Below are positions 24,673-36,296 of a stretch of 41,651 nt of DNA, one piece after another. Numbering within the stretch: position 1 is the first letter of the stretch; each line of letters begins with the position of its first letter. The position numbers and the translations under genes were made by a program. Below the pieces are notes generated by a model, which did not search any database, was not told the origin of the DNA, and was given only the letters and a program-made list of their open reading frames with translations. The stretch spans positions 1 through 41,651 of the IMG/VR virus record IMGVR_UViG_3300044646_001351; one strand, written 5' to 3'. The DNA is from a virus.

Positions 24673-26337
24673 TTATTTACTTTCGATGTCGGCTAATAAA
24701 TCACGTAATGACGCGATTGATTCAGCTACTGATTTTGGATATTTAGCATTATATGCATCTTGATCTGATTTTGCACTTGCTTGTGCATCCGCTGCTTTCT
24801 TTTTCAAATCATCGATATTTGCCTGTACGGGGTCAACACCGCCTGTTTTAATTTTTGCTAGATCTGATTGCATTGTTGCATTTTGATCTGCTGAAATTTT
24901 ATGCCAATCATCAGCTGCTGCTTGTGTTTCTGGACCCCAAATACCATCAATTTTCAAATTAGAACCAGTCAATGCATTTAACATTTCTTGTTTTTTCATA
25001 ATATCTGGATCTCCACGTTTTCCGTGTGGACCAGGCTCTGGATATGGAGCAGGTGGAATAGGGTTGTTGTTTAATCTACCTAATCCATATCCAAGCCCGA
25101 ACCCAGCAATACCAGCGATCAATGCTGCTTTACCTGGGTTTTGTTTCAACCAATTTGCAACACCCATTTTTTGAATAGCTTGTTTTTCAGCTGATGCAAG
25201 CTTTGGACTACTCAACGCACTTTGTGATAATTTTTGTAATTCTTTAGGACCTAATGCAGACACCTTTTTTTCAACATCTCTAAATACAGCATCCGATGCC
25301 CCACCAGAAATACCAGAAGGAATGCCGCCAGATTTGCCAGCGCCACCTACAAATTCTCCACCAGCCCCGCTGGTACCTAATGCACCACCTGGTCTTTTTG
25401 CAAGAGCCCCACCTACATCATCCATTCCTCCACCGATACCACCAGCACCGCCACCGATACCACCAGTACCGCCCCCTGATAATCCACCTGCATTTTTTGC
25501 TGCTGGCAAACCTGGTGCTTTGTATACTGCTGGAGCACCTGCTGGTGGTTTAATTTTACCAAATCCACTAGCAATATCATCTGCTGCTTTACCAGCAGCA
25601 TTTAATGCCTTGCCCCAAGGAACAATAGCTTCATCTAAATTTTTACTTTCGATTGCTGTTAATACATCACGTAATGCGGCAATATCTTCAGCTATAGTAG
25701 TTGTTTTTTTCATAATTTTTCCTTTCGATTCAGCTAATCCTGCAGCTGTATAAGTTTCTGGCCCAGGAATACCATCTGCGTTGATACCATTCTGTTGCTG
25801 CCATGATTTTAATTTTGTTTTAGTTTCTGGACCAAGTATACCATCTGGTTTAGCTCCAATTATTGATTGTAATTTTGCTAATTGATTGATGGGTTGCGAT
25901 GGTTGGTTTGCAAGTGCGGTAGTATCATGCTGACCTTTAATAGCACCAACTGCAGCGGTAGTACCTAAATTTATTCCAGCCATCGCTGCAAATTTACCAA
26001 GTTTTCCAAGATTTTTAGCACCAGCTATTGCTGCACCACCTGGTACTGGAGCGGCAACCGAACCAGCGATATCTCCAGCCATGTATGCATATGGATTTCT
26101 TTCTTCAGCAGCTTTATTAGCAGCAATTGCCTTTTCTAATTCCGCTTCATAAGGTGTTCCATTAAATTTTGATCTAAGAAATGCTATTAAGTTTTCACTA
26201 GTTCCAAAACTAGCACCATGAACTGCCCCTCTAGCAAAATCACCAGCATCTTGACCAAAATCTTGAAATGAATATTCATCTAATGCTTGTTCATATCCAA
26301 AACTTTCAATTAATTCTTTTGAACTAAACTGTTTCAT
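24673..26337 (-). CDS. Large Gly/Ala-rich protein with peptidoglycan-binding motifs, probable virion protein
   Basis: Start at 26337 (MKQFSSKELIESF), overlapping the upstream stop as TAATG with AAGGGGAAAT before it. The 554-residue product has an N-terminal segment with GDFARGAVHGASFGTSENL, then PG-binding-1 motifs DGILGPET and DGIPGPET, a Gly-rich middle, a hydrophobic stretch KAALIAGIAGFGLGYGLG, and another motif DGIWGPET near the end. The segment RDVLTAIESK in the middle recurs as RDLLADIESK at the C-terminus. This is typical of a virion or ejected protein that contacts the cell wall. A good internal ribosome-binding site precedes the in-frame ATG at 25713, so a shorter product may also be made. 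No lytic catalytic site is visible. Confidence 0.72.
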   Translation of the reverse strand: MKQFSSKELIESFGYEQALDEYSFQDFGQDAGDFARGAVHGASFGTSENLIAFLRSKFNGTPYEAELEKAIAANKAAEERNPYAYMAGDIAGSVAAPVPGGAAIAGAKNLGKLGKFAAMAGINLGTTAAVGAIKGQHDTTALANQPSQPINQLAKLQSIIGAKPDGILGPETKTKLKSWQQQNGINADGIPGPETYTAAGLAESKGKIMKKTTTIAEDIAALRDVLTAIESKNLDEAIVPWGKALNAAGKAADDIASGFGKIKPPAGAPAVYKAPGLPAAKNAGGLSGGGTGGIGGGAGGIGGGMDDVGGALAKRPGGALGTSGAGGEFVGGAGKSGGIPSGISGGASDAVFRDVEKKVSALGPKELQKLSQSALSSPKLASAEKQAIQKMGVANWLKQNPGKAALIAGIAGFGLGYGLGRLNNNPIPPAPYPEPGPHGKRGDPDIMKKQEMLNALTGSNLKIDGIWGPETQAAADDWHKISADQNATMQSDLAKIKTGGVDPVQANIDDLKKKAADAQASAKSDQDAYNAKYPKSVAESIASLRDLLADIESK

Positions 26338-27014
26338 TATTTCCCCTTTGGTACACAATTAGGAACGGTTTTTTTACCTTTCTTCTTCATACCAACCTGT
26401 TTATAATCTTTCCAACATGATTCATTAGTTGGTTCTGGTAATAGTTTTTGTTCACCAACAATTGCATCATAGTGATCCATTGTTAAAGTATCACCTTCTT
26501 CACTAAATTGAATTAGTTTCTCAGTGACATTATGTAAATCCATATCAGTTTTTGCATCTTCACGAGAATATTCTAATAAACGAATTAGTAATGGAATATC
26601 CATTTTTACTACATCTTTAGGATTTTCCATTTCTTCCATTGGTGTATTATCTTGTAAGCCTGGACCAACTCCACCAGTGAATCCTGGTGTATGACCTGGT
26701 ACCGCTGATTCTTTCATTTGAACACGTTCTGCAATGATCTTAGCATATTGATTAATCAATTGTCGCTTTTCAACTTTTTCTTGTTGAAAAGCTTCTTCTG
26801 CTTCAGCAAAATATTGTTTTAATAATGAAGGTTGCTTTTCTTCTTTTACAACTGGTTCTGAATAGTGTTGCATAGCCATTTGAACTGGGAGGCTAACCTT
26901 GTGTGGATTAGCCCCTTCATTAATAATACCCATGAATTTTTTCATGTCATTTGAACCTTCTACTGGTTTAGCGGCAGTACCATCTAGTGCCTGTAGAATT
27001 TTTCTCATATCCAT
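26337..27014 (-). CDS. Probable virion protein with C-terminal CWK...NCVP tail
   Basis: A 225-residue protein with charged helices (SLLKQYFAEAEEAFQQEKVEK) and a Gly/Pro linker. It ends in CWKDYKQVGMKKK followed by VPNCVP, a tail that I recall at the end of many marine phage proteins. It overlaps both neighbours as TAATG and belongs to the late unit starting at 28333. The N-terminus MDMRKILQALDG is amphipathic. Function unknown, structural by context. Confidence 0.7.
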   Translation of the reverse strand: MDMRKILQALDGTAAKPVEGSNDMKKFMGIINEGANPHKVSLPVQMAMQHYSEPVVKEEKQPSLLKQYFAEAEEAFQQEKVEKRQLINQYAKIIAERVQMKESAVPGHTPGFTGGVGPGLQDNTPMEEMENPKDVVKMDIPLLIRLLEYSREDAKTDMDLHNVTEKLIQFSEEGDTLTMDHYDAIVGEQKLLPEPTNESCWKDYKQVGMKKKGKKTVPNCVPKGK

Positions 27015-28352: not shown

Positions 28353-28360
28353 TATTTATC
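28353..28360 (-). promoter_or_regulatory. Late promoter motif GATAAATA
   Basis: GATAAATACAAG on the minus strand, 20 bases before the start at 28333, at the stop codon of the preceding 61-residue gene. T4 late promoters often continue as TATAAATAC, as here. Confidence 0.55.
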
Positions 28361-28541
28361 TTCTTTTGATGCTTCCGCCTGTCATTAAGTTAGCATTTTG
28401 ATCTAACGCATTAACTACAGTGCCATCTTTATTCTTTTTTTGGTTAGGACCTTTATTTTGATATACAGCACCAACACCTACATTTGCTGCACTTGTTGCA
28501 CCAGCGGTTGCAGTTTCTTTGATTATTTCATATATTTTCAT
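28356..28541 (-). CDS. Small basic phage protein, 61 residues
   Basis: Begins MKIYEIIKETATAGATSAAN and continues through VGAVYQNKGPNQKKNKDG. The start overlaps the stop of the GIY-YIG gene as TGATG, so its translation is coupled to that gene. The N-terminal MKIxEIIxE-type helix is common in small virion-associated phage proteins. Function unknown. Confidence 0.65.
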   Translation of the reverse strand: MKIYEIIKETATAGATSAANVGVGAVYQNKGPNQKKNKDGTVVNALDQNANLMTGGSIKRR

Positions 28542-29248
28542 CAGTTATTCCTTCGTCTTGTTTCTATTATTTTTTGTTTTGTCTCAGTTGAATGAGTTTT
28601 ACCAAAAAACGGATTTTGATCCCCAGTAAACCGACCTTTCAATGATTCTGAAATTTTACGTCTATGTTCTTCTGATTTTGGACATTTTCTACCTTGCAAC
28701 GACTCACTTATTTTTTTCTTGGTTGCGTCTGATAATTTTTTGCCAATATTCGCATTTGATAGCTTCATTTTCGTATCTTCAGATCTGCATCCTTTATTTT
28801 TTATTGCTTGTCTAATCTTTTCCTTGGTTTCTTCGGAATGTGTCCTTCCAAGCATTGTTCCAGGTTTTCCTTTTAACGCAGTTGATAATTTTTTCCTAGT
28901 ATCAGCAGTCACTTCACCACGATAATGGCCTTTCACGCTGCCGTTTATACCATCTTCAATCATTAGATTTGCCCATTCTTTGGATTCTACTATATTATGA
29001 CTTACTGAAAAAGCAATTGCTTCTTCTTGTATAACATGTTTGTCTTCATACAGGTGGCACCACACTGTAGTAACATCGTTTCCATACATTTTTAAATGCC
29101 GAGTCCACCATTTACCAGACCCTTTGTATTTTATCGGGTCTTTACTGGTAGTTCTTCCAAAATATTTTAATCCTGTTATATTATGTTTTTTAATATATAA
29201 CCAAGTTGGTATAAAATCGTCTTTTACTGAATTATTATAAATATTCAT
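28541..29248 (-). CDS. GIY-YIG homing endonuclease with NUMOD3 repeats
   Basis: The 235-residue protein has the GIY-YIG core (TWLYIKKHNITGLKYFGRT, then KYKGSGKWW) followed by at least five NUMOD3 repeats (SEETKEKIRQAIKNKG, SEDTKMKLSNANIGKK, SDATKKKISESLQGRK, SEEHRRKISESLKGRF). It is a paralogue of the + strand gene at 16444, sharing the -SKDP-KY-GSG- segment. It has a GGAGAT ribosome-binding site and its stop overlaps the next start as TGATG, so it is inserted in a late operon without breaking a gene. Confidence 0.93.
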   Translation of the reverse strand: MNIYNNSVKDDFIPTWLYIKKHNITGLKYFGRTTSKDPIKYKGSGKWWTRHLKMYGNDVTTVWCHLYEDKHVIQEEAIAFSVSHNIVESKEWANLMIEDGINGSVKGHYRGEVTADTRKKLSTALKGKPGTMLGRTHSEETKEKIRQAIKNKGCRSEDTKMKLSNANIGKKLSDATKKKISESLQGRKCPKSEEHRRKISESLKGRFTGDQNPFFGKTHSTETKQKIIETRRRNN

Positions 29249-30512: not shown

Positions 30513-31043
30513 CTAACTAATAAATTCTTCAACTAAATTGAAGAATTTAAATACTCTATTATTTATGCTAATTTCGGTATCAGCGGAAATACCTGCAGCT
30601 TCACTAAATAATTCTTTATCGCCAGTCTTTACTGCATCACGTAATGTAGTTGCAGAACTTAGTCTAGGAGTTTCTTCTTGAATAATAGAATCAAATTTAA
30701 AATATCCATGAGTACTTTTAACACCATTATATTTTTCTAATGAATTAGCCAACCAATCTTCATCAGTACATACTTTTAATTGAATATGCTCACCAAATGT
30801 TTCATAGATCTTAGATGCCAATGTGAACAGATTTTGTTCAGGTATGATATGGTCAGCTACATTAGGTAATATAGTTTCCATTACTTTTAATTTTACATCA
30901 AACGGTAATGGATCTTTAGGTCCAATAGTATTAGGATTAGTGCCAATAAAGAATTGGTCAGATTGTGCTGCAATCTTCCAAGATTCTCTATGGCCTTTAT
31001 GAGGGGGATTGTATCTACCAAAACAAATTCCTATGGTGTCCAT
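30513..31043 (-). CDS. Cytidylyltransferase-like (NMNAT-like) nucleotidyltransferase
   Basis: The 176-residue protein has the nucleotidylyltransferase signature GRYNPPHKGH at 9-18 and the distal SSATTLRDAV segment at 129-138, the usual pair of substrate-binding motifs. Such enzymes join a nucleotide to a phosphate-bearing molecule with release of pyrophosphate. The substrate could be NMN, a phosphorylated sugar or another acceptor; the sequence does not say. It overlaps the ligase-like gene upstream by 13 bases and has a GAGGC ribosome-binding site. It is the last of four coupled genes including a ligase-like and a Pol-beta-like enzyme. Confidence 0.85.
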   Translation of the reverse strand: MDTIGICFGRYNPPHKGHRESWKIAAQSDQFFIGTNPNTIGPKDPLPFDVKLKVMETILPNVADHIIPEQNLFTLASKIYETFGEHIQLKVCTDEDWLANSLEKYNGVKSTHGYFKFDSIIQEETPRLSSATTLRDAVKTGDKELFSEAAGISADTEISINNRVFKFFNLVEEFIS

Positions 31044-32098
31044 TTATGCCTCGGTACTAGTTTAATATGTCCAAATTGTTTGTTATCATCAGAATACCGT
31101 ACCCATCCTTCTGGATTATATGCTTTAACATCACAATCATGATTTTCAAGTTCTTCGATAATTTGATTTTTGATATCACGTATAGTATATATTAATCTAA
31201 ACGTATCATTATACGCTTCATAATTAGAGTGTATTCTACTCATAATTTTAGACAGTTGAAATCCACTGATCCTAAATTGTCCATTACTTAACCAACCATA
31301 AAATGATACAAGTAGATCATATTTCATTTTAGCATTAAAATACTTGTAGATATACTCACGAAATTCACTGACACCGGTGATAGGTTTTAAAAATTTATCA
31401 AGATGATCACACAATGAATTTATTTTATCTATAGTGTCTTCTGTTAATCGATATTGTATATCAACTTTAGAATAATATGGATTAAGAATTATTACTTCAT
31501 CGGTTATATTGAATATATCAAAATTATCCAATGGAAGTTGTTGATCATCTTTCAATCCAAATGCATTAAAGTATGCATGTCCTGCTAATAGAATATTAGA
31601 GTTTTCTATTCGTTTTCCTAGTGCAGTATCTTTATTAACTGTATAACCGGTATGATTAGGATAGAAATTATATTCGTTATTAGCTAACGGTGGTTTATTC
31701 CAATATAAAAGATCAGCATAGACAAATCCAACGAAGTCTTTTGGTGTGGCGGCATCTAATAATGGAAATAACTTGCCAAACTTGATAGCATGTTCCTTAC
31801 GTTGGTCTGATACATTTATACGATCTTTACCAGACTGATTAACTATAAAGTCATATAGTTCTTCTGGCGAAGTAGATTTACTACCTCGTGCCCAGCCGTT
31901 ATGCCCAGTCATAATGAGTGGTCCATTTACAGTTTCTCTCCCCCAATATATTTGTAGGCCACCATCCCATTTCATTCTAACTGAGCTAGAATCATTACAA
32001 ATTTCTTGGATATGTTGAATAGCTTCTTTTACACCATCAGACCCATAGAAGAAAACTAAATCTTCTAAGTGATTAAACGCTCTTCCGAGTTTTTTCAT
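31031..32098 (-). CDS. Ligase-superfamily nucleotidyltransferase-like protein
   Basis: In the 355-residue protein, residues 43-46 read KWDG, the adenylation lysine motif of DNA and RNA ligases and capping enzymes (K-x-D-G). Further on, DFVGFVYADLLYW resembles motif III, and the C-terminus holds EGWVRY and IKLVPR, matching motifs IV and V in order. The N-terminus begins HLEDLVFFYGSDGVKEAI. I recall this family from aquatic phages without a known reaction. The likely activity is ATP-dependent nucleotidyl transfer or strand joining, acting on RNA or DNA ends. It overlaps both neighbours (ATGA upstream, 13 bases downstream), so the set is made together. Confidence 0.72.
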   Translation of the reverse strand: MKKLGRAFNHLEDLVFFYGSDGVKEAIQHIQEICNDSSSVRMKWDGGLQIYWGRETVNGPLIMTGHNGWARGSKSTSPEELYDFIVNQSGKDRINVSDQRKEHAIKFGKLFPLLDAATPKDFVGFVYADLLYWNKPPLANNEYNFYPNHTGYTVNKDTALGKRIENSNILLAGHAYFNAFGLKDDQQLPLDNFDIFNITDEVIILNPYYSKVDIQYRLTEDTIDKINSLCDHLDKFLKPITGVSEFREYIYKYFNAKMKYDLLVSFYGWLSNGQFRISGFQLSKIMSRIHSNYEAYNDTFRLIYTIRDIKNQIIEELENHDCDVKAYNPEGWVRYSDDNKQFGHIKLVPRHKWTP

Positions 32099-32745
32099 TG
32101 GAAATATGTTTGTTTTATGTGTTGATATTTAATAGGGTTATGTTTTACTGCTTCTAATAATCTAGATGGAGAACGCATATCATATTCAGTTGCATTAGGG
32201 CTGATAATAATTTTAGCAATTTCATCCGGGTTTTTAGTTATTAGTTCTCTAGTATTACGATAGAGTAAACCACCAAATGGGCTAATCATAAAATTATCTG
32301 AGGTTAGATTAGCTAAATCACACCATATACTAACAATGGTTTTGCCTTTAACATCTGATGAATCATATACATGATCATGTAAATGTGCTATTGTACTAGC
32401 ATCATTTACCGTTGTCAAATCTACTTGTACAATATCATTACCAAGCGGTATCCCGACATGTACATTAACTCCTGATCTAGTTGATTCTAACCCTTGATTA
32501 ATGAAAAATTCTTGTAATAGTTTTCTGCTTTCTAATAGATTACCAGCTCGATGTGATGGTAGGATTGATAGTAGTTCATCAGCATCGATGAAGAAGTCTA
32601 CATCTCCGCTGATTTCTTTTTTTCCGGCACTACCAAATGGATATATTGTTAACCCTGTTGGTAATATTGATTGGATGTTAGTTAATAATTGTTGATAATC
32701 TTGTTTTTTTATTGGTTTAGCACTTTTAATTGCATTTCCACTCAT
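32095..32745 (-). CDS. Pol-beta superfamily nucleotidyltransferase
   Basis: In this 216-residue protein, residues 37-50 read FGSAGKKEISGDVD, the Pol-beta nucleotidyltransferase pattern G-S-x(n)-D-x-D. The third catalytic Asp is probably D109 in VQVDLTT. The family includes tRNA CCA-adding enzymes, poly(A) polymerases and small nucleotide-adding enzymes. It is coupled by ATGA overlaps to the small gene before it and to the ligase-like gene after it, which suggests a two-step pathway in which ends are extended or modified and then joined. No RNA-binding domain is evident in the short C-terminus. Confidence 0.82.
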   Translation of the reverse strand: MSGNAIKSAKPIKKQDYQQLLTNIQSILPTGLTIYPFGSAGKKEISGDVDFFIDADELLSILPSHRAGNLLESRKLLQEFFINQGLESTRSGVNVHVGIPLGNDIVQVDLTTVNDASTIAHLHDHVYDSSDVKGKTIVSIWCDLANLTSDNFMISPFGGLLYRNTRELITKNPDEIAKIIISPNATEYDMRSPSRLLEAVKHNPIKYQHIKQTYFQ

Positions 32746-33116
32746 TTATACCGACCATCATTGATATGTTGACAGATCTCTTCTTGTAATTTATCACATG
32801 TTTCTTTGATTATTTTCTCATCTAACTCATGTGGTAATTCTCGAATTGAATATTCTTTCGTGTACATTTTATAACATTCACGAATTGCTTTTTCAAACAT
32901 TGAAGATTTAGGTCGTTTTTTTGACTCGATGATATCAATACATTTTGCTATAATTGGATACAGATGACGGCGGTATGCTTCATCATCGTTATTCATGTAA
33001 AACATAAGGTCTTCAGTTAAATCATAATTCAACTCACGTTTACCATCATCACCGACTTCTTTAACAAAGTCTAAATCTTTAAAGTTTTTTCCTTCTAATA
33101 ATTCTATAATACGCAT
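32742..33116 (-). CDS. Small conserved protein heading the nucleotidyltransferase set
   Basis: A 124-residue helical, charged protein: MRIIELLEGKNFKDLDFVKE, then TEDLMFYMNNDDEAYRRHLY and a C-terminal CDKLQEEICQHINDGRYK. I recall similar proteins beside the same kind of genes in other phages. It follows a hairpin that has a late promoter in its loop. Its stop overlaps the nucleotidyltransferase start as ATGA. Possibly a subunit or adaptor of the enzymes that follow. Confidence 0.72.
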   Translation of the reverse strand: MRIIELLEGKNFKDLDFVKEVGDDGKRELNYDLTEDLMFYMNNDDEAYRRHLYPIIAKCIDIIESKKRPKSSMFEKAIRECYKMYTKEYSIRELPHELDEKIIKETCDKLQEEICQHINDGRYK

Positions 33117-33121
33117 ATTTA

Positions 33122-33160
33122 AGCCCAGTTAATAATAAGTATTTATCGATTAACTGGGCT
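33122..33160 (-). promoter_or_regulatory. Hairpin with late promoter GATAAATA in its loop
   Basis: Twelve-base perfect arms AGCCCAGTTAAT and ATTAACTGGGCT enclose a 15-base loop containing GATAAATAC (33147-33139). It lies between the clpA stop and the start at 33116. Readthrough RNA from clpA would form the hairpin; RNA begun in the loop would lack the first arm. The T tract afterwards is weak, so the hairpin may block or process rather than end readthrough. Confidence 0.72.
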
Positions 33161-33167
33161 ATCATGA

Positions 33168-35441
33168 TTAATCGATGACTATTGGGTCATCAATTGCCAC
33201 TGATTCTTGGTTTTTAACTACCTTTGGTTTAGAAGTCAAGACAATTTTATCATCTGCGATTGCAATAGTCAATGTACCACCGTGTTTTAAATCACCGAAT
33301 AGCATCAATTTAGCTAAATCACGTTTAATTTCTTTATCAATTACACGTTGTAATGGTCTAGCACCCATTTTAGGATCAAACCCTTTTTCAATCAACCAAT
33401 TAACGGCATCTTTAGTGATTTTAATACGGATTGATTTATCTTTAACCTGTGTACGTAATTCATCAATAAATTTATTAACAACCAGTGTCATTGCATCTTT
33501 ACCAAGCTTATTAAATGTAATAATACCATCTAATCGATTACGGAATTCTGGTGATAAGAATTTTTTCAAATCGGCATCAGAATAATCTTTTTCTTGCTTA
33601 CCAAACCCTATTGCATTTTTTTCTGCAGATTGAGCACCAGCATTGGTTGTTAAGATTAATACGACATTTCTACAATCTGCCCGTTTACCATTCGAACCGG
33701 TGATGAATCCATTGTCCATTACTTGTAATAAGACAGTTGCGACATCTGGATGTGCTTTTTCAATTTCATCCAATAACAGTACAGCATTTGGATTTTCTTG
33801 AATTTGTGTAATCAATAAGCCTGCATTTTCTTCAAATCCAACATAACCTGGAGGTGAACCGATCAGTTTACTGATGCTATGTTTTTCTTGATATTCTGAC
33901 ATATCAAATCTTAATAACTTAGAACCAAGGTGTTTAGCCAATGCTTTAGCGGTTTCAGTTTTGCCACAACCAGTTGGGCCCATGAATACAAATGAACCAA
34001 TAGGTTTATTTTCTGGTTTTAATCCAGCTTGTGCCACCATTATTTTATCAACAACTTCGGTTAATGCTGCATCTTGTCCATAAACTTCTGCTTCTAATTT
34101 TTCTTGTAATGATGCAATATTATTGCTTTCAGTTTCCATGATCTGTTCTTCTGGAAGATTGATCATTTTAGCAAGTTCGAATTGAATTTCACGTTCCGCA
34201 ACAATACGTTCATCAGCTAGTTTCAAGTTAAAACGAGAACATGCTACGTCAATAAGATCAATCGCTTTATCTGGAAGTTTTTTATCAGCTTGATATTTTA
34301 CTGATAATTTGACTGCTGCTTGCAATGCATCTTCTTTGATTTTAACATCATGATGTTTTTCGTAGTATTTTTTCAAACCTTTCAAGATTTTCAATGTCAT
34401 TTCTTGAGTTGGTTCATCTACGGTAATACGTTGAAATCTACGCATTAAGGCACGATCTTTTTCGAAGTGTTTGCGGTATTCATCCCAAGTAGTAGATGCA
34501 ATAACTTTGATATTACCTTTACTTAATGCAGGTTTCATCATATTGGCTAAGTCATTGGCTGAATTATTACCTGCGCCAGCCCCACTGATCATATGAGCTT
34601 CATCGATGAAAAGGACAGTCTTTCCTTTCTTTTCAAGACCTTTTAAAACTTGTTTAAAACGTTCTTCAAAATCACCACGATATTTAGAACCCGCCAACAT
34701 TGCAGAAATATCAAGATTATATACAGTATAATCTTTTAAGAAGTCTGGTACTCCACCTTTAGTGATGTTGTATGCCAACCCTTCTGCAATTGCTGTTTTA
34801 CCAACCCCTGGATCACCAACTAAGATTACATTATTTTTAGAACGACGACCTAATGCTAATGCAATGTTTTCAAGTTCATCAACTCGACCGATAACTGGAT
34901 CGATTTTACCATTCGTAACTTCTTCATTCAAGTTGGTTGTATAGGCTTGTAATGCTTTTGTTGAACGCGGGTCACTATCTGAAGGTGGTGTGTTTTCTTC
35001 ATCAGAATCACTGTTCATATTCAAATAATCAGCAAATTTATCTTTTTCAATACCAGCTTGTGAAATGTAATAAAATGCCCAACTGCGTTTTTCATTTAAC
35101 ATCATTAAAAAAGCATCTGTAATTTCAACTTTCTGCCGGTTGTTGAAAATAACTTGCGTGAATGATTTATTTAATAACCGTTCAAATGCTGCGGTTTTCT
35201 TTGGTTGTGACACCATATCAGATACAGTAATATCTTTACATTTATTATTCAAATGATCTAATACTGCACCTTTAAGTTTAGATGCATTAGAGCCATATGC
35301 ATTAATAGTATCACTAAATGCAGTGTTAGTTAGCATTGCATATAATACATGCTCTATAGTTATATATTCATGATGAAGTTTTTTTGCGGCATCGGATGCT
35401 TTAGAAAGTACTTCTTCAAAATCAGAGCTTGGTTCTACCAT
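33168..35441 (-). CDS. clpA: ClpA-type AAA+ unfoldase
   Basis: The 757-residue protein has the ClpA plan: a Clp N domain (1-145), an acidic linker (SDSDEENTPPSDSDP), a first AAA+ domain with Walker A GDPGVGKT (209-216) and Walker B FIDEAH (278-283), and a second with GPTGCGKT (488-495) and pore loop GYVGFEE. The ClpB/Hsp104 middle coiled coil is absent. IGF at 611-613 sits where ClpA carries its IGL loop for docking on ClpP. No ClpP gene lies in this window, so it probably uses host ClpP to degrade chosen proteins. The dnaJ gene lies 10 bases upstream, so the two form one unit. Confidence 0.95.
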   Translation of the reverse strand: MVEPSSDFEEVLSKASDAAKKLHHEYITIEHVLYAMLTNTAFSDTINAYGSNASKLKGAVLDHLNNKCKDITVSDMVSQPKKTAAFERLLNKSFTQVIFNNRQKVEITDAFLMMLNEKRSWAFYYISQAGIEKDKFADYLNMNSDSDEENTPPSDSDPRSTKALQAYTTNLNEEVTNGKIDPVIGRVDELENIALALGRRSKNNVILVGDPGVGKTAIAEGLAYNITKGGVPDFLKDYTVYNLDISAMLAGSKYRGDFEERFKQVLKGLEKKGKTVLFIDEAHMISGAGAGNNSANDLANMMKPALSKGNIKVIASTTWDEYRKHFEKDRALMRRFQRITVDEPTQEMTLKILKGLKKYYEKHHDVKIKEDALQAAVKLSVKYQADKKLPDKAIDLIDVACSRFNLKLADERIVAEREIQFELAKMINLPEEQIMETESNNIASLQEKLEAEVYGQDAALTEVVDKIMVAQAGLKPENKPIGSFVFMGPTGCGKTETAKALAKHLGSKLLRFDMSEYQEKHSISKLIGSPPGYVGFEENAGLLITQIQENPNAVLLLDEIEKAHPDVATVLLQVMDNGFITGSNGKRADCRNVVLILTTNAGAQSAEKNAIGFGKQEKDYSDADLKKFLSPEFRNRLDGIITFNKLGKDAMTLVVNKFIDELRTQVKDKSIRIKITKDAVNWLIEKGFDPKMGARPLQRVIDKEIKRDLAKLMLFGDLKHGGTLTIAIADDKIVLTSKPKVVKNQESVAIDDPIVID

Positions 35442-35450
35442 TTTATTTTC

Positions 35451-36296
35451 CTATTGTTGTTGATTATTAATATCTTTCAATATTTCTTTCAGTTTATTAG
35501 TTAACACTGGATTCGATATAGCCGGTGTTTTAATTTTAATTACAGATATGAATCTACCACGTTGACCAGTCCGTATATTTTTAAATCCACCATGTTGTTT
35601 AGCGTATTCAACTCCAGTTTCTACCCCTGCTCTTATATCTAAGAACATTGTTTCACCTGTTATTGACTTTACTTCCTTTCTACATCCAATCATTGCTTCA
35701 ATTGGGTTGATTTCAACTGTAGTATATAGGTCATTTCCAATTCTGTCAAATTTATCGTCTTTATCAACGAAAATGGTAACATGTAAATCACCGCGTTGAA
35801 TATGCGGGAAGGAATCGTCACCTAACCCTCTATACTTAATAGTATCACCATGTTCAACCCCTGCAGGAACATCAATTACTACAGTTTGTGGTTTACCACT
35901 TGGTAATGTATATTTGGCTTCTAATTGCTTGCCAGTATATGAATCGGTAAATGAGACTTTACAATTTAAGTTTAAATCACGATTTCGATTCATATGTCTT
36001 CTACCAAAGATATCACCGAATGGATTATTGCCACCAAAATGATGTCCAAAAATGTCATTAAAATCGAAGTCATGTTGATAATGTTGTGACCGTCCTCCAA
36101 ATGCTTGCATTTGGTCATATTCTTCACGTTTTTGAGCATCACCAATTGTATCGTATGCAACGGAAATCTCTTTGAATTTTGATTCGCTTCCGCCTTTATC
36201 AGGGTGGTGTCTATTGGCTAGTTTTTTATAAGCTTTTTTAATTTCTTCTTGAGTGGCGTTTTTATCAACGCCTAATGTTGTATAGTGGTCAGTCAT
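35451..36296 (-). CDS. dnaJ: DnaJ-type co-chaperone, class without zinc finger
   Basis: A 281-residue J-domain protein. Residues 4-65 are a complete J domain with the invariant HPD at 31-33 (NRHHPDKGG) needed to stimulate DnaK ATPase. A Gly/Phe/His/Asn-rich region follows, then two C-terminal client-binding domains (TYKLPSG-like and [15 protein letters not shown]). The CxxCxGxG zinc repeats of class I DnaJ are missing, so it is closer to CbpA or class II. No ribosome-binding site precedes the ATG; the leader is U-rich. It has its own promoter inside a hairpin. It probably recruits host DnaK for capsid assembly or feeds the ClpA encoded next to it. Confidence 0.94.

Follow-up and report, generated by a model that had tools for sequence, protein, structure and literature searches.

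The window, a virus contig of 41.7 kb (41,651 nucleotides), carries on its minus strand a dnaJ gene (35451-36296) and the gene of a ClpA/B-type ATPase (clp, 33168-35441), followed on the same strand by four genes that are termed P1 to P4 here. P1 (32742-33116) is an open reading frame for a helical protein of 124 aa, whose relatives lie directly upstream of P3 or P2. P2 (32095-32745) encodes a nucleotidyltransferase of 216 aa that resembles family X polymerases, P3 (31031-32098) a ligase-superfamily-like protein of 355 aa that belongs to DUF6267, and P4 (30513-31043) an HxGH enzyme of 176 aa with NMNAT/cytidylyltransferase-like features. The gene overlap across 30513-33116 that was described in an earlier note on this DNA is exact, with 4, 4 and 13 bases shared at P1/P2, P2/P3 and P3/P4, and all motifs quoted there were found, namely GS...SGDVD and VQVDL in P2, KWDG, EGWV and KLV in P3 and GRYNPPHKGH in P4. 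The order dnaJ-clp-P1-P2-P3-P4 is the same in the near relatives L002-L009 and Ka/Ks values of 0.07-0.24 against L005 and L007 indicate purifying selection on P1-P4; these genes are therefore considered real and under constraint. The dnaJ-clp pair (33168-36296, minus strand) precedes the cassette in many of the DUF6267 loci, e.g. L010, L025, L037 and L076. A free-standing NUMOD3 homing endonuclease gene (28541-29248, minus strand) lies between genes for an 84-aa and a 443-aa protein. Judged by spacing, it is present in L002 and absent from the otherwise close L008, and its insertion therefore appears to be recent and polymorphic. A PADLOC search returned no match.

A late promoter in front of this gene set, as assumed in the earlier note, is unsupported. 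The sequence TATAAATA occurs in the window below chance frequency and is absent upstream of P1, and the string nearest to a late promoter, GATAAATACT at 33138-33147 (minus strand), is not more frequent than expected by chance. This string is found in the loop of an inverted repeat in the clp/P1 gap (33122-33160), whose 12-bp arms (33122-33133 and 33149-33160) are perfect by direct reading and whose loop contains GATAAATA.

None of the family models used recognises P2, which is therefore called Pol X-like by its fold and not by its sequence: no convincing match was obtained in Pfam, PHROG or NCBIfam, no Pfam polymerase model matches and a sequence-profile search against the PDB yielded chance matches only. 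The AlphaFold2 model of P2, built with 31 relatives, has a pLDDT of 92. In a Foldseek search of the PDB, the best 50 matches are all family X polymerases (Pol mu, Pol lambda, Pol beta and AsfvPolX), headed by Pol mu (E 2.3e-6, probability 1.00), and 99 matches have E<=1e-3. This structural evidence gives strong backing to the Pol-beta type that had been proposed for P2, and its predicted class as a Pol X-like nucleotidyltransferase is strongly supported by the model. The GS...SGDVD motif covers residues 38-50 (32596-32634, minus strand) with the putative metal-binding residues Asp48 and Asp50, and the predicted third catalytic residue, Asp109 in VQVDL (32419-32421, minus strand), is invariant in alignments A5 and A6. 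Across 31-37 sequences, the SGDxD and QxD residues S46, G47, D48, D50 and D109 do not vary. An hhalign comparison with one human Pol beta sequence, identical to PDB entries, places GSAGKKEISGDVD of P2 on GSFRRGAESSGDMD, at low probability and over the GS...SGDxD stretch only. P2 consists of palm and thumb and is too small for 8-kDa or PHP domains.

P3 is a member of Pfam DUF6267 (PF19782; E 1.9e-16, 60.8 bits against a gathering cut-off of 27), a family without assigned function that is not named in the literature searched and whose relatives occur in over 400 phage records. Since just three DUF6267 loci, all metagenome-assembled, were found among 84,980 species genomes, this is in effect a phage family, and a cellular origin was rejected. 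Profile search, which the earlier note had named as a check on its ligase-superfamily assignment, placed P3 in DUF6267 and yielded no significant ligase sequence match; searches against the PDB returned chance matches only, and hhalign did not match P3 to the 121Q phage RNA ligase. The assignment is supported by five invariant motifs (I, Ia, III, IV and V) that follow in ligase order as KWDG, GxNGW, GDLLY, EGxV and K(L)V. K43, D45, G46, G65, N67, D129, E330, G331, V333 and K346 are the same in all 52 sequences. They include the predicted AMP-accepting Lys43 of motif I KWDG (31961-31972), the E, G and V of motif IV EGWV (31100-31111) and Lys346 of motif V KLV (31061-31063), all on the minus strand. 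The structural match is consistent with this reading and weak: for the model built with 52 relatives (pLDDT 93), the best Foldseek matches in the PDB are DNA ligases IV, III and I and archaeal ligases, headed by DNA ligase IV (E 0.028, probability 0.75, low TM-scores), and none has E<=0.001. The sequence motifs are hence a stronger argument than the fold for P3 as a putative ligase-superfamily enzyme.

Two features set the architecture of P3 apart. About 200 residues with a large helical insertion separate motifs III and IV, and the protein ends nine residues after Lys346 and therefore lacks an OB/motif VI domain. The helical insertion and the low structural score would also suit a scaffold or a catalytically altered ligase fold (e.g. 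a protein-modifying one) that joins no strands, a reading that is very unlikely given that the catalytic motif residues are all invariant. The missing domain bears on a different possibility, in which P3 acts as an RNA ligase, P2 adds terminal nucleotides and the two together mend tRNA or mRNA that host nucleases have cleaved. RNA ligases are without an OB/motif VI domain, and a phage RNA ligase is among the structural matches of P3 (E 4e-3). However, the best structural matches of P2 are all family X DNA polymerases and not CCA- or poly(A)-adding enzymes, the window contains no tRNA gene and the cassette contains neither a kinase nor a phosphatase, so that repair of RNA is an unlikely function.

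P4 matches the PHROG cytidyltransferase families phrog_3041 and phrog_395 (E ~1e-11), and its relatives are spread over more than 500 phage records. It carries both motifs of the HxGH class, GRFxPxHxGH as GRYNPPHKGH (30990-31019, minus strand; G9, R10, P13, G17 and H18 invariant) and SSxTxxR as SSATTLR. The HxGH motif and the PHROG match back the NMNAT/cytidylyltransferase type suggested from the sequence. NMNAT models are the closest to P4, but score 11-20 bits against NCBIfam cut-offs above 110.

The linkage of these genes was assessed in a non-redundant set of 71 viral-contig loci with DUF6267. P2 adjoins P3 in 49 of them (overlapping by 4 bp in 26 loci and by 1 bp in 11) and P4 directly follows P3 in 25, while the full P1-P2-P3-P4 set is restricted to the clade of the window and L025. 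In cyanophages, pelagiphages and methylophages, P3 and P4 are located after the helicase/mazG region, either adjacent or one to two genes apart, and in the S-PM2 gene S-PM2d138 they are fused into one protein of 591 aa (DUF6267 at residues 6-388, P4 at 412-566). The tight coupling described in the earlier note therefore holds for the pairs P2-P3 and P3-P4, the latter also as a fusion, and not for the four-gene order, which is confined to close relatives and L025. P2 and P4 seldom occur in the same locus, so that there is no universal single three-enzyme pathway; P3 is the hub, with P2 and P4 as alternative or joint partners. The same data bear on whether P4 could be a phage NMNAT that replenishes NAD+ in infected cells, against an NAD+-depleting defence or for phage enzymes, with P2 and P3 as an unrelated neighbouring pair. 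Jumbo phages carry P4 with no P2 or P3 neighbours detected, and the NMNAT-type models do match P4 and its relatives weakly. Yet the P3-P4 overlap and fusion bind P4 to the ligase-like enzyme and its scores lie far under the NMNAT cut-offs, which makes NAD+ supply rather unlikely. In a clade without P2, a glycosyltransferase-like gene (RGRNNLVAK / DVDLGF) is found upstream of P3 (L010:7075-7950 and L033:3847-4770).

A further property shared by P1-P4 lies at their N-termini. In relatives, these unrelated proteins often start with similar short peptides that end in a gp21-type L/I-x-E (a bar marks the predicted cut): MRANQFLTE|A, MFINQILTE|A and MRFTEFRTVLTE|A in P3, MKKFSEIIE|A and MRLRQLFEE in P4, MTILKE|GG in P2 and MRIIELLE|G in P1. 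Methylophilales phage Melnitz has MLTLINFSKYITE|D in P3 and MKKFSEIIE|A in P4. In T4, the first 10 residues of IPIII direct loading into the head; the targeting function resides in positions 4 and 7, and cleavage by gp21 takes place after L/I-x-E (PMC9026906). A strict rule built from these published mutational data picks out ipII and ipIII in the T4 stretch used as control and leaves the other 26 genes there unmarked; ipI has a longer layout, MKTFKEFTSTTTPVSTITE|A, ending in ITE|A. Among the loci from viral contigs, the tag pattern is present at 175 of 713 gene starts (~24%) versus 22 of 3210 internal methionines (0.7%), and 97 of the 175 tagged genes lie outside P1-P4, in about 39 clusters. 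A stricter rule marks 30 of 63 P3 and 13 of 32 P4 proteins and no Clp (0/19) or DnaJ (0/14) protein, and 11 of 15 distinct P1 N-termini meet the tag rule compared with 0 of 34 internal methionines. The strict T4 rule matches few of the P1-P4 proteins themselves, and the tag is missing from P3 in S-SM1 and in several further cyanophages. A gp21-type S77 protease is encoded in all three relatives longer than 100 kb; the window is a fragment without this gene.

Among the four genes of the window, only P1 is tagged, with an N-terminal octapeptide and L-x-E site (MRIIELLE|GK, 33093-33116, minus strand) identified by the tag rule, and no tag was found at the N-termini of P2, P3 and P4. Neighbouring genes, such as 26337-27014 and 28356-28541, also carry the tag. 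The former (minus strand) encodes a protein of 225 aa in which a T4-type targeting peptide, MKKFMGIINE|G (26916-26945, minus strand), fits the rule of the T4 control exactly and is located at residue 24. This protein ends in WKDYKQVGMKKKGKKTVPNCVPK, a motif that recurs in unrelated proteins (the L037 P4 fusion, L089 and cyanophages). Tag-like starts are additionally found in zeta-toxin/P-loop kinase family proteins of Melnitz (L102:15855-16523, MKTFAELQE|G) and HTVC008M (L122:6563-7225, MIPFILKE|G), the latter encoded between DUF6267 and P4.

Virion data are available for the cyanophage S-CREM2 from a published proteome (PMC10665884). The strict T4 rule matches 5 of 41 proteins detected by mass spectrometry and 0 of 86 undetected ones (Fisher p=0.003, in a comparison that was not blind, because the T4-based rule was written after the S-CREM2 list had been seen), and a looser rule that requires A, G or S after the Glu matches 3 of 41 versus 1 of 86, which is not significant (p=0.10). 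Among the strict-rule matches is the P4 homologue (MKNFSSFLTE|A), which was detected in virions by mass spectrometry (PMC10665884), together with a SAM hydrolase and an APH-like kinase. The P4 homologue of S-SM1 (MKKFSAFLNE|A) was likewise detected in virions by mass spectrometry (PMC3037559). In the sections available, the authors of the S-CREM2 study weighed carriage in the capsid, could not exclude contamination or carry-over of abundant proteins, and did not mention a targeting sequence as explanation (PMC10665884). Direct virion evidence concerns P4 homologues only, and no paper was found that places P2 or P3 in virions. The S-CREM2 phage Cas9 (OR473000 ORF12, L117) was detected in virions and contains ...RFASFMAE|A near its N-terminus; it may therefore be packaged into the head as well. 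Most tags in the viral contigs (MRxxEF.., MLLREL..) are not identical to those of T4 and few of P1-P4 fit the strict T4 rule, as would be expected if the peptide served another sorting or interaction role and not packaging. This is quite improbable, considering that the tag ends in the gp21 consensus L/I-x-E, with A or G as the usual next residue, that the longer arrangement is also seen in T4 ipI (MKTFKEFTSTTTPVSTITE|A), that tagged enzymes are among the virion proteins of S-CREM2 and that a gp21-type protease is present.

Taken together, the most likely reading, which we hold at about even odds, is that P2, P3 and P4 constitute a nucleic-acid end- or gap-repair module that many related T4-like phages carry in the head. 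The catalysis of P2, P3 and P4, their DNA substrate, the packaging of P2 and P3 and the role of P1 are what we infer within this proposal. Here, P2 as a minimal family X-like polymerase would fill a gap or extend an end by one or a few nucleotides, and P3 as a diverged ligase-superfamily enzyme would take AMP on Lys43 and seal the strand; it is plausible that these two proteins first extend an end and then join it. P4, as an HxGH, NMNAT-like enzyme, would supply or consume a nucleotide cofactor in this repair, which would account for the P3-P4 fusion in S-PM2. That the genes serve one pathway, as the earlier note suggested, is well supported in outline by the conserved P2-P3 and P3-P4 pairs and this fusion, whereas its suggested action against a host nuclease is unsupported. 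In many related T4-like phages, the tagged proteins would be built into the prohead core, a gp21-type protease would trim the tag after L/I-x-E and the trimmed proteins would enter the host with the phage DNA, so that repair could start at once. In the clade of the window, where P1 alone is tagged, P2-P4 would either be produced inside the cell or be brought in by P1. More specifically, and tentatively, somewhat short of an even chance, T4-like aquatic phages may possess a head-borne polymerase-ligase-nucleotidyltransferase kit that is injected with the genome by means of a transferable tag, which also directs dozens of other families, and that mends gaps or ends of the incoming DNA before phage gene expression. 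The proposal provides DUF6267 with a first testable function and adds P2 as a Pol X-like partner that is unseen by the family models used. If the tag is a packaging signal, the N-terminus alone would predict injected proteins among the unknowns of marine and freshwater T4-like phages and would account for the recurrent enzymes in cyanophage virion proteomes.

Several known systems can be compared with this cassette. P3 shares KxDG, motif Ia, motif III, EGxV and K(L)V, in this order, with ATP-dependent DNA and RNA ligases, and DNA ligases are its best PDB folds, but it differs by the helical insertion between motifs III and IV, the absence of an OB/motif VI domain and the lack of a significant sequence match. 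T4 Pnkp and Rnl1 rebuild tRNA cut by host nucleases. The idea of phage-encoded end repair is common to both systems, whereas the enzyme classes are different and the P1-P4 cassette is without a kinase. With family X DNA polymerases (Pol beta, mu and lambda, ASFV Pol X), P2 shares the palm-thumb fold, GS...SGDxD and the third Asp in a QVD strand; it differs by the absence of a recognisable sequence match and of an 8-kDa lyase or PHP domain, and by its position beside DUF6267. AsfvPolX is similarly small (TMt 0.58) and represents a minimal Pol X that serves viral genome repair (PMC11646218). A phage precedent is DNAP03 of YerA41, which is recognised as PolX by BLAST (PMC9023294), whereas P2 is recognised by no model used here. 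The cyanophage gene clusters T4-GC71 and T4-GC190, named in Sullivan 2010, correspond to DUF6267 (P3) and the cytidyltransferase (P4), respectively, and are adjacent and overlapping; T4-GC71 had been given no function, no P2 was found there, and the tag is not discussed in the sections consulted. Finally, the T4 internal head proteins (IPI, IPII, IPIII and Alt) are alike in their short tag ending in L/I-x-E, the gp21-type protease and the presence of some tagged proteins in virions. They carry the capsid-targeting tag that P2-P4 of the window do not, and the tagged set in T4 consists of small basic proteins and Alt, whereas here it comprises polymerase-, ligase- and HxGH-type enzymes together with dozens of further clusters.
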